From: Caldifarciminota bacterium
GTDB taxonomy: Bacteria > Hydrothermota > Hydrothermia > LBFQ01 > DSFT01
Assembly: GCA_025060695.1 (NCBI GenBank)
Contig: JANXBH010000014.1
Span: 1-44,342 of the forward strand
Direction: 5' to 3'
DNA: 44,342 nucleotides
This document shows positions 20,804-43,051 of the stretch, piece by piece (the first letter of the stretch is position 1; every line of letters starts with the position of its first letter). The position numbers were made by a program, and so were the translations under genes. The notes beneath the pieces were generated by a model that saw nothing but the letters and a program-made list of their open reading frames with translations, was not told the origin of the DNA and did not search any database.

Positions 20804-20817
20804 GCCAGTGATTAGCC

Positions 20818-20828
20818 TTAAAATTTTA
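20818..20828 (+). promoter_or_regulatory. Promoter-like motif of tRNA-Ala
   Basis: CCTTAAAATTTTAG, with TAAAAT 17 bases before the mature 5' end of tRNA-Ala. It is the second such palindrome in a 56-base divergent gap. Confidence 0.45.
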
Positions 20829-20841
20829 GAACTTCGTTTTA

Positions 20842-20914
20842 GGGGCGGTAGCTCAGTTGGGAGAGCGCCTGAATGGCATTCAGGAGGTCGGGGGTTCAAA
20901 TCCCCTCCGCTCCA
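20842..20914 (+). tRNA. tRNA-Ala (GGC anticodon)
   Basis: A complete 73-base cloverleaf: acceptor GGGGCGG paired with CCGCTCC including the G3:U70 identity pair of alanine tRNAs, D-arm GCTC/GAGC, anticodon stem CCTGA/TCAGG around loop ATGGCAT (anticodon GGC), T-arm GGGGG/CCCCT with TTCAAAT, discriminator A. CCA is not encoded. A protein start codon follows after only 5 bases. Confidence 0.97.
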
Positions 20915-20919
20915 TATAA

Positions 20920-21474
20920 ATGATTTATAGGAAATTATTTCATTTACTTTCACTACTCCTTATAATTCCAGTTATAATTTTAGATGATAAGTGGAGAATA
21001 ATCTTTTCTATAGTTTTTCTTCTTTTAGTCTTTTTTGTAGATTCCTTAAGACAAAAGCACAAAGGATTTAGACAACTTTTTATGATATTCTTTAAAGGTT
21101 TATTAAAGAGAAATGAACTTAATGAATATACATCCGCGACTTACTTGGCATTTTCGTATGCTATAATAAATTTACTTTTTAGTAAAGAAATAGTGATTTT
21201 CTCACTTTTAATCTTAGCCATATGCGACCCTATAGCATATATATTTGGAAATTACATAAAACCAAATATCACAATTTATAGTAAATCAATTAATGGATTT
21301 ATTGGCTTTCTTCTAAGTGGTATTATTCTCTCTACTTTCTTATTTAGTGAAATAAAACTAACCTCAAAAATATTCGCTGTTTTAGTTAGTGCTATTGTTG
21401 AATTACTTACACCAATAGACGACAATTTAAGTGTTCCCATTGCAAGTTCATTAGTTCTAAAGTTTACAATTTAA
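20920..21474 (+). CDS. Dolichol/phytol-kinase-like membrane protein (CTP-dependent lipid kinase superfamily)
   Basis: A 184-residue polytopic membrane protein. It starts with RKLFHLLSLLL and carries DPIAYIFGNYI and KSINGFIGFLLSG in the middle, ending with ELLTPIDDNLSVPIASSLVL. These are the signatures of the dolichol kinase/phytol kinase/CDP-archaeol-type superfamily, which phosphorylates polyprenols or similar lipids in the membrane. It is a little shorter than most members. The start codon lies 5 bases after tRNA-Ala with no SD; the RKLFH motif begins at residue 4, so this start is firmly placed. Its exact substrate is not determined. Confidence 0.8.
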   Translation: MIYRKLFHLLSLLLIIPVIILDDKWRIIFSIVFLLLVFFVDSLRQKHKGFRQLFMIFFKGLLKRNELNEYTSATYLAFSYAIINLLFSKEIVIFSLLILAICDPIAYIFGNYIKPNITIYSKSINGFIGFLLSGIILSTFLFSEIKLTSKIFAVLVSAIVELLTPIDDNLSVPIASSLVLKFTI

Positions 21475-21491
21475 AATAGGAGGTAGAAGCT

Positions 21492-23393
21492 ATGAGCTTA
21501 TTTCTAAGTCTATTGATTTTTAAAATACCAAAAATATATAAAGATGAGAGCTTTATAGGGGCAAAGCGATATGAAACTGAACTAAACTACGAAAAAGCAA
21601 AGCAAGAATACCTAAAACTCTCTAAAAAGTATAAAGGTAAAGACTTAGCAATAATATACGAAAATCTTGCGGATTTATACTTCTTTTACTACTACCCAGA
21701 TAGTAATAAACTCGCATTAGATTATATCATTAAAGCACATAAGTTAGATAAGAAAAATGACAGAATTTTATACAAAGTTGCACTATATTACGAAGCAGTA
21801 GAAAATTATAAAGAAGCATCAAAATACTATGAGGAATTAGCAATTAAATTTCAAAAGAGTGAATTTTTTAATGATGCAATGAATGGAGTAGAAAGAATAT
21901 TTCCTAAAAATTACAAAGATGAATTAGCTGCAAAGTATAATAATGAAGAATACATAACACTTATGGAATTAGAAAAAGAAATTGAAAACCAGCCGGTATT
22001 TTTAAGGTCAAAGTATGAAACTTATGATGGTAAAAAAGAATTGATAAATCAAATAATAGAAAATAGACTACTATTGAAAAAGGCGTTAAGTGAAGGTTAT
22101 CATTTATCAAGACAATTTAGAGAAAAACTATATGAAGCCTTAAAAGATGAATTTGCAAGAGTATACTACACAAAATATATTGTAGAAAAAATAAAAGTTG
22201 ATTCAAATGAAGTGAAACAATTTTATGAAAAAAATAAGCAAAACTATAGAATATGGGGATTTGTTAATTTAAAACTATTAAAATGGGACGATACTCTAAA
22301 TTTACCGAACGACAGCATATTTGATAGTCTATCAAAAATAATGACTTTTTATGAAAACTCACCAGATAGTCTTATATATAAATCACTTTCAAAAAGAGAT
22401 ACAGGAAAGATTTTTATAGAAATCATAAAGGATACAACTTATGCAATAAGAATAATTAAAATACAAGAGCCCGGTTATACAAAGCTTGAAGATATATATA
22501 CCTCTATAGAAAGCAATTTAAAGTTTGAGAAAGAAAGAAAAACTTGGGAAGCATTATTAGATAGTATTCTAATTAGATACGGTTTTAATACAATAAACAA
22601 AGATACTGCAAGCAAGGAAATACCTGAAACACTCGCAGTAATAGAAGCTTTTAATACATACATTACCAAAAGTGATTATCAAAATTATCTAAATAAAGTT
22701 CCAGTTATATACAGAAAGGCATACTCAACAAAAGAAGGAGCTTACGAACTAATCAAAATATATACACAAAGAGAACTATTATTTAGAGATGCTATTGTAT
22801 ATACGAGAATATTCACAATCTCGGATGGATATACCACATTTAAGAGAAATTTTGAAAACCTATTAATAAATGAACTAAAGGATGAGATTTTAAGAGATAT
22901 TTCAGTATCACAGGAAGAAATAAAAAATTATTACCAAGAAAATAGAGAAAAATTATTTAGAATTCCTGCAAATGCAAAAATTAGAAAGTTAACTTTAGAT
23001 AATGAGAAGGAAGCAAGAAGAATTTTTAACTTAATATCTAAAAATCCACAAAAGTTTGATTCTTTAGCAAAAATATATGCAAAAGAGCAAGAAGAGAAGC
23101 AATTTGGAGGTTTGATGTTTGTTAATGAATTTGATACTTCACTATTTAATCAGATTAAAAACTTAAAAATTGGAAAACCTAATTTAATAAAAAGGGATAA
23201 AGAATGGATGATTGTAAGTGTTCAAGAACTTAACCCTGCAAGGTACAGAGAACTAAGTGAAGTTGAAGAACAAATTAGACAATTACTATTAAACAATAAA
23301 AAGGAAGAAGCATGGAATAATTATAGAGAAAAATTGAAAGAAGAGGCGAAAATTCAAATACTTATAAAGGAGGAAAATAAAGAAGGCGGATAA
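21492..23393 (+). CDS. TPR protein with PpiC/SurA-type peptidyl-prolyl isomerase domain
   Basis: A 633-residue protein. The N-terminal part (about 20-155) contains TPR-like repeats (YEKAKQEYLKLSKKYKGKD, ALDYIIKAHKLDKKNDRILY, YKEASKYYEELAIKFQKSE). A SurA-like helical chaperone region follows, with VKQFYEKNKQNYRI as a typical pre-parvulin linker. A second linker (IKNYYQENREKLFRIPANA) leads into a parvulin-like domain containing FDSLAKIYAKEQEEKQFGGL. It probably assists folding of envelope or secreted proteins. The signal is short and non-basic at the start (MSLFLSLLIFKIPKIYKD). SD site GGAGG is 8 bases before the ATG. Confidence 0.8.
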   Translation: MSLFLSLLIFKIPKIYKDESFIGAKRYETELNYEKAKQEYLKLSKKYKGKDLAIIYENLADLYFFYYYPDSNKLALDYIIKAHKLDKKNDRILYKVALYYEAVENYKEASKYYEELAIKFQKSEFFNDAMNGVERIFPKNYKDELAAKYNNEEYITLMELEKEIENQPVFLRSKYETYDGKKELINQIIENRLLLKKALSEGYHLSRQFREKLYEALKDEFARVYYTKYIVEKIKVDSNEVKQFYEKNKQNYRIWGFVNLKLLKWDDTLNLPNDSIFDSLSKIMTFYENSPDSLIYKSLSKRDTGKIFIEIIKDTTYAIRIIKIQEPGYTKLEDIYTSIESNLKFEKERKTWEALLDSILIRYGFNTINKDTASKEIPETLAVIEAFNTYITKSDYQNYLNKVPVIYRKAYSTKEGAYELIKIYTQRELLFRDAIVYTRIFTISDGYTTFKRNFENLLINELKDEILRDISVSQEEIKNYYQENREKLFRIPANAKIRKLTLDNEKEARRIFNLISKNPQKFDSLAKIYAKEQEEKQFGGLMFVNEFDTSLFNQIKNLKIGKPNLIKRDKEWMIVSVQELNPARYRELSEVEEQIRQLLLNNKKEEAWNNYREKLKEEAKIQILIKEENKEGG

Positions 23394-41534: not shown

Positions 41535-42017
41535 TTGAGAAAAGCAATTTATCCAGGTTCATTTGACCCTATTACAAACGGACATATAGATATTATAAAA
41601 AGAGCAGTAAAACTATTTGATGCGGTAATTATAGCAATAGCTCAGCCAAGACACAAAAAACCACTATTTAGCTTAGAAGAGAGAATATATCTTGCAAGGG
41701 AAAGTTTAAAAAACATAAGTAATATAGAAATTATGAGCTTCGATGGACTTTTAGTAGAATTTTGTAGGAAGTTAAATATAGATATTGTAATAAGAGGAAT
41801 TAGAGCAGTTTCAGATTTAGACTATGAATTTCAAATAGCATGGATGAATAGGAAACTATATAGCAACATTGAAACGATTTTTCTAATGCCATCAGAAGAA
41901 TATTTCTTTCTATCTTCAAGTTTAGTAAAAGAAGTTGCAATGTTAAAAGGAAATATAGATAATCTTGTCCCCAAGGTTGTAAAAGAAGCATTAATAAAGA
42001 AACTTAATTTAGGATAA
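41535..42017 (+). CDS. coaD: Phosphopantetheine adenylyltransferase
   Basis: A 160-residue nucleotidyltransferase that makes dephospho-CoA from 4'-phosphopantetheine and ATP. Motifs: AIYPGSFDPITNGH (TNGH at 14-17), VIRGIRAVSDLDYEFQ and FLSSSLVKEVA, all diagnostic for CoaD. The start is TTG; the family begins within a few residues of AIYPG, so no other start fits. It has no SD and is close behind a TAAAAT element, so a leaderless TTG-initiated message is implied. Its end overlaps the convergent malate dehydrogenase gene by 9 bases. Confidence 0.95.
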   Translation: MRKAIYPGSFDPITNGHIDIIKRAVKLFDAVIIAIAQPRHKKPLFSLEERIYLARESLKNISNIEIMSFDGLLVEFCRKLNIDIVIRGIRAVSDLDYEFQIAWMNRKLYSNIETIFLMPSEEYFFLSSSLVKEVAMLKGNIDNLVPKVVKEALIKKLNLG

Positions 42018-42941
42018 AAATCTATCTACTACTAATTGAAGTTCTTTAATATGTTTTGCACAATTATTTAAAAGCTCCATTTCCCTTTCGTCTAAATCAA
42101 GTTCTACAATTTTCTCTATACCATTTTTCCCAAGTACTATAGGCAAACCTATCACAACGTCGTTTAATTTATACTCACCTTTTGTATAAACACTTGCACT
42201 AATAAGCTTTTTAATATCCTTTATTATAATTTCTGCCATATATCCAGCAGCATCACCGGGTGCAAAAAATGCTGAAGTCCCCATTATTTGAACTATTTCT
42301 CCACCCGCATATTTTGTTTTATTTACTATTTCGTCTATATCACTTTCACTTAGTAATTTCGTAATTGAAATACCATTTACAGTTGTATATCTTACAAGAG
42401 GGACCATGTCATCACCATGTGTCCCAAGGACTAAACCTTGAACTTCATATGGTAAAACATTTAACTTTTGAGATACAAAATATGCAAGTCTTGAACTATC
42501 TAATACACCCGCTTGTCCAATTACTCTTTCTCTTTCAAATCCAAGAATTTTATATGCTGCATATGTCATTGCATCAAGAGGATTAGTTACTACTATTACT
42601 ATTGAGTTTTTTGCATATATCTTAATTTTCTCGCTTATATCTTTAATAATTTTAAAATTTACCTCTATTAAATCGTCTCTTGACATTCCGGGTTTTCTTG
42701 GAACACCCGCAGTTATTATTACAACATCAGAATCAGCAATATCTTCGTAATTATTTGAACCTTTTATCTTTCCTGAAAATCCTATTATCTGACTTGCCTG
42801 AGCTAAATCTAAAGCCTTTCCCCTTGCTATTCCTTCTACTATGTCAATTAAGACTATATCAGCTAAATCTTTATATAATAAATATCTTGCAGCTTCCGCA
42901 CCAACATTCCCTGCCCCTATGATAGAAACTTTATATCTCAT
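42009..42941 (-). CDS. mdh: Malate dehydrogenase (LDH-like type)
   Basis: A 310-residue NAD-dependent dehydrogenase. The Rossmann motif GAGNVG (9-14) is followed by Asp33 at the end of the second strand, which favours NAD. Substrate residues Arg82 and Arg88 in VPRKPGMSRDD mark malate rather than lactate, with Arg151 and His175 in LGTHGDD as the catalytic pair partner. It interconverts malate and oxaloacetate. The ATG lies 6 bases after the 3' end of tRNA-Asp with no SD, so the two are transcribed together. Confidence 0.93.
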   Translation of the reverse strand: MRYKVSIIGAGNVGAEAARYLLYKDLADIVLIDIVEGIARGKALDLAQASQIIGFSGKIKGSNNYEDIADSDVVIITAGVPRKPGMSRDDLIEVNFKIIKDISEKIKIYAKNSIVIVVTNPLDAMTYAAYKILGFERERVIGQAGVLDSSRLAYFVSQKLNVLPYEVQGLVLGTHGDDMVPLVRYTTVNGISITKLLSESDIDEIVNKTKYAGGEIVQIMGTSAFFAPGDAAGYMAEIIIKDIKKLISASVYTKGEYKLNDVVIGLPIVLGKNGIEKIVELDLDEREMELLNNCAKHIKELQLVVDRFLS

Positions 42942-42947
42942 TAAAAA

Positions 42948-43021
42948 CGGGGACGACGGGATTCGAACCCGCGACCTCTGGCGTGACAGACCAGCGTTCT
43001 AACCAGCTGAACTACGTCCCC
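42948..43021 (-). tRNA. tRNA-Asp (GTC anticodon)
   Basis: A complete 74-base cloverleaf on the minus strand: acceptor GGGGACG/CGTCCCC, D-arm GTTC/GAAC, anticodon stem CTGGT/GCCAG around loop CTGTCAC (anticodon GTC), T-arm GCGGG/CCCGT with TTCGAAT, discriminator G. CCA is not encoded. TTTTTA and then the mdh ATG follow directly. Confidence 0.97.
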
Positions 43022-43026
43022 GAAAG

Positions 43027-43041
43027 TTTTAAAATTTTAAA
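43027..43041. promoter_or_regulatory. Shared palindrome between tRNA-Asp and thiI
   Basis: TTTTAAAATTTTAAA in the 30-base gap. Toward the tRNA, TAAAAT is 12 bases from the mature 5' end. Toward thiI it is 16 bases from the ATG. A tRNA gene cannot use an SD or leader signal, so a role in transcription is more likely than one in translation. Confidence 0.6.
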
Positions 43042-43051
43042 GTATAAACTC

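Follow-up and report, generated by a model that had tools for sequence, protein, structure and literature searches.

The window, that is, the whole stretch of 44,342 nt analyzed here, is a GenBank contig (C5) of a Caldifarciminota genome (G000; 1.50 Mb, 77 contigs, 95% complete). It carries two tRNA genes, each followed within a few nucleotides by a protein gene on the same strand:

20816..20824, plus strand: promoter-like box CCTTAAAAT upstream of tRNA-Ala, read from the sequence, with the hexamer TAAAAT at 20819-20824
20842..20914, plus strand: tRNA-Ala(GGC), discriminator A at 20914, CCA not encoded (ARAGORN; Rfam RF00005, 67.3 bits)
20915..20919, plus strand: 5-nt spacer TATAA, read from the sequence
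20920..21474, plus strand: 184-aa polytopic membrane protein, dolichol/phytol-kinase-like (CTP_transf_1-like), from the open reading frame and its homologues
21478..21484, plus strand: Shine-Dalgarno (SD) sequence AGGAGGT of the second cistron, read from the sequence
21492..23393, plus strand: second cistron, 633 aa, with a PPIC-type rotamase domain
43034..43042, minus strand: promoter-like box CTTTAAAAT upstream of tRNA-Asp, read from the sequence
42948..43021, minus strand: tRNA-Asp(GTC), discriminator G at 42948, without CCA (ARAGORN, Rfam)
42942..42947, minus strand: 6-nt spacer TTTTTA between tRNA-Asp and mdh, read from the sequence
42009..42941, minus strand: malate dehydrogenase (mdh), 310 aa, ATG at 42941, 6 nt after tRNA-Asp

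ARAGORN and Rfam agreed on tRNA-Ala(GGC) at 20842-20914; for tRNA-Asp, the Rfam end at 42948 was taken as the discriminator, the ARAGORN call being one base longer. An earlier note on this DNA had placed the ATG at 20920 five bases past the tRNA-Ala discriminator, without SD or CCA, and both programs and the sequence confirmed these coordinates, as they did its remark that both tRNAs of the window lie flush with a start codon (gaps of 5 nt for tRNA-Ala and 6 nt for tRNA-Asp). An SD was absent from the TATAA spacer and from the acceptor strand of tRNA-Ala, and no GGAGG-like sequence precedes the ATG at 20920. Between tRNA-Ala and this ATG there is no space for a promoter and none was seen, nor is there a TA-like −10 signal ~10-12 bp before the ATG, tRNA-Ala sitting in that place. 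Given the box at 20816..20824, the leader of the tRNA-Ala transcript is predicted to be ~10 nt long. Within this operon, the distal cistron (21492) is SD-led and the tRNA-proximal one (20920) lacks an SD. The tRNA-Asp-to-mdh gap of 6 nt narrows to 1 nt in a relative of the same genus, and the closest named relatives of the window mdh belong to candidate division WOR-3 bacteria (58-60% identity).

The start of the 20920 gene had been assigned in the earlier note from the motif RKLFH, an assignment that held: all 19 homologues compared across the phylum share R4, K5, and H8, and no other ATG, GTG, or TTG precedes these residues. The invariant motifs of the protein are RK..H, DxxA, K..EG/NG, and DDN. 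The alignment with the same-genus orthologue starts at the codon of ATG 20920, which there is TTG and lies 3 nt after the same tRNA. The AlphaFold model (pLDDT, 94.9) has a helix beginning at residue 2; a fold search with this protein gave no significant match, and Pfam support for the family is weak, with one homologue matching PF01148 (E=8e-4). The orthologues in G002 and G003, members of the same family, have no tRNA and carry CTTTAAAAT 19 nt before the ATG; judged by sequence, they look like leaderless genes themselves. In the genus of the window, tRNA-Ala stands where these two orthologues have the putative promoter. A homologue in G010 was left out of the order-level evidence (nearly the G003 sequence, in a bin with 7% contamination).

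To the earlier note, two junctions out of two had suggested a habit of the lineage rather than chance, and it had proposed a survey of tRNA-to-start distances. Such a survey was run on retrieved stretches. The window genome has 42 tRNAs, none with an encoded CCA, and the next gene is a same-strand protein gene in 29 cases, a tRNA in 7 (2-5 nt apart), and an opposite-strand gene or none in 6. In 26 of the 29 tRNA-to-protein junctions, the start codon lies 0-9 nt after the discriminator, far from being a rare event within 15 bases, and the habit extends through the order. The gaps were distributed as follows:

0 nt: Pro-CGG, Cys
1 nt: Thr-GGT, Glu-TTC, Thr-CGT, Leu-TAG, Met
2 nt: Val-GAC, Arg-CCT, Glu-CTC (rpmE), Leu-GAG (ndk), Val-TAC, His
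3 nt: Lys-TTT, Gly-GCC, Gly-TCC, Leu-TAA, Tyr (RdgB-like), Trp (rpmG)
4 nt: Ser-CGA, Ser-GGA
5 nt: Ala-GGC (20920 gene)
6 nt: Asp (mdh)
7 nt: Gln-CTG
9 nt: Ala-TGC (prs-like), Met/iMet (GGGP-synthase-like)

Gene names other than mdh come from sequence inspection. Eight of the 26 flush starts were set by hand, either because the gene caller had begun the gene further downstream or because it had overlooked a short or non-ATG gene; each of the eight was backed by family N-terminal motifs or by the orthologue in G001. Gaps of ≤9 nt were far more frequent after tRNAs (26/29) than among non-negative same-strand gaps between protein genes (42/143; Fisher p=1.3e-9), and the difference persisted with uncurated automatic starts (18/28 vs 42/143, p=6e-4). 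Base composition predicts that ~14% of cases would have a start codon within 10 nt in a given frame. The three exceptions (Arg-CCG, Gly-CCC, and Ile-GAT) carry their own initiation signals: the genes after Arg-CCG and Gly-CCC have their own TTTAAAAT box immediately before the ATG, and Ile-GAT is followed by glnA with an AAGGAGG leader. Where a gene after a tRNA has its own box, the gap is widened to 15-25 nt. The tRNA-Ile/glnA leader (loci L002 and L103) contains tandem hairpins with AAAG loops (CCACAAAGUCGUGG, GAACAAAGUUGUUC), which are conserved and lie ahead of the SD; it matched no Rfam family, and it is possibly a regulatory leader.

The start codons of the 26 flush genes are ATG (12), TTG (10), CTG (3), and ATA (1), so that non-ATG starts are enriched relative to genes in general (14/26 vs 84/414, p=3e-4). 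We considered whether the UUG excess reflects deliberate down-tuning and rejected this, the pyrimidine-rich trailers (CTTTG, TTTTG) explaining it more simply. Chance start codons in AT-rich DNA were ruled out by the conserved N-termini of orthologues and by a relative with 59% GC. In G000, apparent CTG or ATA starts follow tRNA-Leu (C44:71962), tRNA-Tyr (C11:125298), tRNA-His (C33:36912), and tRNA-Val (C11:137687); in G001, such starts are kept for Tyr, His, and Val, and ATG is found instead for Leu. Gene finders trained on SD motifs and ATG, GTG, or TTG will miss or mis-start flush genes of this kind. The tRNA trailers in G000, G005, and G018 begin with pyrimidine-U-U, are pyrimidine-rich, and never read CCA; in G005, 40/40 have C or T as first base and 38/40 have T as second. 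This trailer start is perhaps a signal for 3′ processing or termination.

We compared relatives at increasing distance: G001 from the same genus, G002-G003 from the same family, G004-G011 from the same order, G012-G039 from the same class, G040-G059 from the same phylum, and G061, a named WOR-3 genome. The same automatic procedure was used throughout for these counts, with G006 represented by a 15-locus sample. Gaps of ≤9 nt within the order amounted to 18/27 in G001, 4/27 in G002, 14/27 in G005 (GC 59%), and 7/11 in G006, the layout thus recurring in two order-level relatives with GC contents of 59% and 42%. Outside the order, they were 0/19 in G018, 0/7 in G022, 0/6 in G052, and 1/11 in G061, and an actinobacterium gave 1/10. 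Pooling the order without G002 against G018, G022, G052, and G061 gave p=2e-12. Between G000 and G001, N-termini and junctions are conserved while spacers and start codons vary (ATG/TTG, CTG/ATG). The flush layout is a trait of the order, partly lost or not yet gained in the genus of G002, whose count also indicates that the layout is not essential to the family. The tRNA-Trp/rpmG pair, common across the phylum, has a 3-nt gap without SD in G000 and G005 (TTT-ATG), whereas the gap contains an SD in G018 (14 nt, AGGGGGAG), G061 (~28 nt, TTGGAGGAAG), and G002 (29 nt, AAGGGAGG). The same gene pairs thus form a natural series across related genomes, from an SD-led leader through a gene's own leaderless promoter to the tRNA-flush state, along which the loss of SD initiation can be followed one junction at a time.

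In 444 kb of the window genome, 113/414 genes (~27%; 14.6 expected) have a TAWAAT whose first base lies 16-10 bases upstream of the start codon. Its positions peak sharply at −16 to −12, and SD matches are only modestly above background (16% vs 8%). The same TAWAAT peak was found in G001, G002, G005, and G006. In G018, G022, and G052 (small samples), 38-58% of genes have an SD and there is little or no TAWAAT peak. TA-like −10 signals just before start codons have been read as marking leaderless genes (Zheng et al., PMC3160421), and on sequence grounds many mRNAs of the order would likewise be leaderless, a near-leaderless mode apparently being used widely. TAWAAT also precedes 30/35 transcript-leading tRNAs in the window genome, starting 26-10 bases upstream of the tRNA 5′ end and implying short tRNA transcript leaders of roughly 0-10 nt.

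The enzymes that might process such transcripts were also sought. No RNase Z (TIGR02651) scored above cut-off in the 21 genomes searched, the window genome and the order included, and thus no convincing RNase Z was found across the order although no tRNA there encodes CCA. Two candidates were rejected: C3:23519, a general MBL-fold protein with a weak score, and C55:11152, a PRK00685 hydrolase, neither being a convincing RNase Z. Processing of 3′ ends where no tRNase Z is obvious has a precedent in Cutibacterium (P. acnes) (PMC3848588). At the 5′ side, neither RNase P RNA (RF00010) nor its protein (PF00825) was matched in G000-G003, and both were matched in all eight other order members and G012 (in G004, one of the eight, the RNA was matched only as fragments below cut-off). 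The distribution of HARP (PF08745) is the reverse within the order, with presence in G000-G003 and absence from the eight other members. In the window genome it lies as follows:

C22:7721-8152 of G000 (locus L005), minus strand: HARP, PF08745

Its TIGR03875 score is 126.1 bits (cut-off, 95.3), and it adjoins the 3′ side of tRNA-Lys at a flush junction. The family of the window thus appears, from these searches, to live with HARP alone, that is, with a minimal protein-only RNase P and without the RNP enzyme; bacterial HARP-only genomes reported so far belong to Aquificae, Nitrospirae, and some unclassified groups (PMC6380272). The HARP reading frame is split after ~36 codons at the same A9 run in G000 (C22, ~8.1-8.2 kb, minus strand) and G001 (L079), and its continuation requires either a −1 shift or an extra A (transcript slippage). 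With 5 occurrences in 444 kb, A9 runs are rare; the HARP of G002 is uninterrupted. Loss of RNase P as the cause of the flush layout was rejected, G005 and G006 being flush with an RNP RNase P and G018 having HARP without flush junctions.

We infer from these sequences, and consider likely, that maturation of tRNA 3′ ends releases near-leaderless mRNAs, through co-transcription, cleavage at the discriminator, and translation of the downstream fragment without an SD. In the window, tRNA-Ala would be the first cistron of the unit and the 20920 membrane-protein gene the second. RNA polymerase would initiate a few bases upstream of tRNA-Ala, the tRNA would fold, and, since the gene lacks CCA, the tRNA 3′ end would be made by a cut at the discriminator. 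The same cut would leave the 5′ end of the mRNA 5 nt from the AUG, to be translated as a near-leaderless message; if the transcript is cut there, the TATAA spacer is the entire mRNA leader. Trimming the tRNA would probably make the 5′ end of the message as well, much as in mitochondria. In favor of this reading are the flush layout at most tRNA/gene pairs, its conservation across species, the promoter-like boxes before the tRNAs, the missing SDs, and the leaderless-type promoters of orthologues that have no tRNA; against it are the lack of a canonical RNase Z match above cut-off, the low count in G002 (4/27), and the eight starts set by hand.

Three other explanations are less probable. Same-strand protein genes also lie close together in this genome, ~40% of their gaps falling in the range from −4 to 8 nt, and the tRNA might merely be the first gene of a tight operon, its short gap having no functional meaning. 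Such ordinary compactness is unlikely, however, considering that gaps of ≤9 nt make up 29% of the non-negative gaps between protein genes vs 90% of those after tRNAs, and that other WOR-3 genomes of similar size lack the layout, which does occur at 59% GC. It is very unlikely that the tRNA-mRNA is translated uncut from an SD-independent start, the folded tRNA beside it serving as a structured 5′ UTR. With a stable acceptor stem as near as 0-5 nt to the start codon, 30S binding should be blocked; the tRNA also needs to be released for use, and tRNA-tRNA junctions of similar length must be cut. In favor of this option, no clear RNase Z was found, and in Nanoarchaeum the 5′ UTR of valS consists of a tRNA half (PMC3491384). 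A promoter of the downstream gene inside the tRNA gene (e.g., in the T arm), yielding a leaderless primary transcript, seems extremely improbable. This genome does form leaderless-type promoters near start codons, but the required TAWAAT at −16 to −10 would fall in the acceptor strand, none is visible in the junction sequences, and genes with a box after a tRNA are those with an opened gap (15-25 nt). The T-loop was dismissed as an internal −10 box, its spacing being wrong by several bases too far upstream (position reckoned by inspection).

Processing at the tRNA 3′ end, as we favor it, resembles several known systems in part. In the E. coli thrU-tyrU-glyT-thrT-tufB operon, tRNAs and an mRNA likewise share a transcription unit, but the last tRNA is followed by a leader of ~100 nt with an SD, as opposed to 0-9 nt without one here. 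The likeness to animal mitochondrial tRNA punctuation drawn in the earlier note stands insofar as the tRNA 3′ end abuts the reading frame a few nucleotides from the start, tRNA excision would set the 5′ end of mRNAs that would be near-leaderless, and non-AUG starts are tolerated. It does not extend to punctuation of the whole genome, because only ~26 units are involved, the leading tRNAs have promoter-like boxes of their own (30/35), and the tRNAs stand only on the 5′ side; with 42 tRNAs in 1.5 Mb, the genome is not one in which nearly every mRNA is bordered by tRNAs within one long transcript. Bacterial TA-led genes share the −10 box ~12 bp before the start and the missing SD with many genes here, but the 5′ ends of the flush genes would arise by RNA processing rather than transcription initiation, and the survey of leaderless genes does not mention tRNAs (PMC3160421). 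In Nanoarchaeum equitans, tRNA 3′ processing at tRNA-sRNA and tRNA-mRNA junctions likewise creates the 5′ end of the RNA that follows, the tRNA promoter lies near the tRNA, and the RNP RNase P is missing (PMC3491384). That organism, however, is an archaeon in which RNase P is absent altogether, whereas HARP is present here, and its products are sRNAs and a few merged mRNAs rather than a genome-wide set of SD-less mRNAs. Within the open-access literature, and hence as weak evidence, searches turned up neither leaderless mRNAs reported for WOR-3 nor a description of tRNA-flush mRNAs as a bacterial genome-wide layout.

Whether a free-living bacterial order uses tRNA excision generally to make mRNA 5′ ends is, in our judgment, evenly balanced; tRNA promoters would then drive dozens of genes, an endonuclease (no canonical RNase Z having been found) would cut at the discriminator, and SD-less mRNAs would start at AUG, UUG, CUG, or AUA. 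On this view, a single transcript would couple tRNA supply to the output of genes such as mdh, ndk, rpmE, rpmG, prs, and HARP. A family that seems to have HARP as its only RNase P also prompts one to ask how both ends of its tRNAs are generated. If our reading is correct, one RNA cut would yield both a tRNA and an mRNA start. The order would then show, on a genome-wide scale in bacteria, a parallel to mitochondrial tRNA punctuation that arose hand in hand with leaderless translation.
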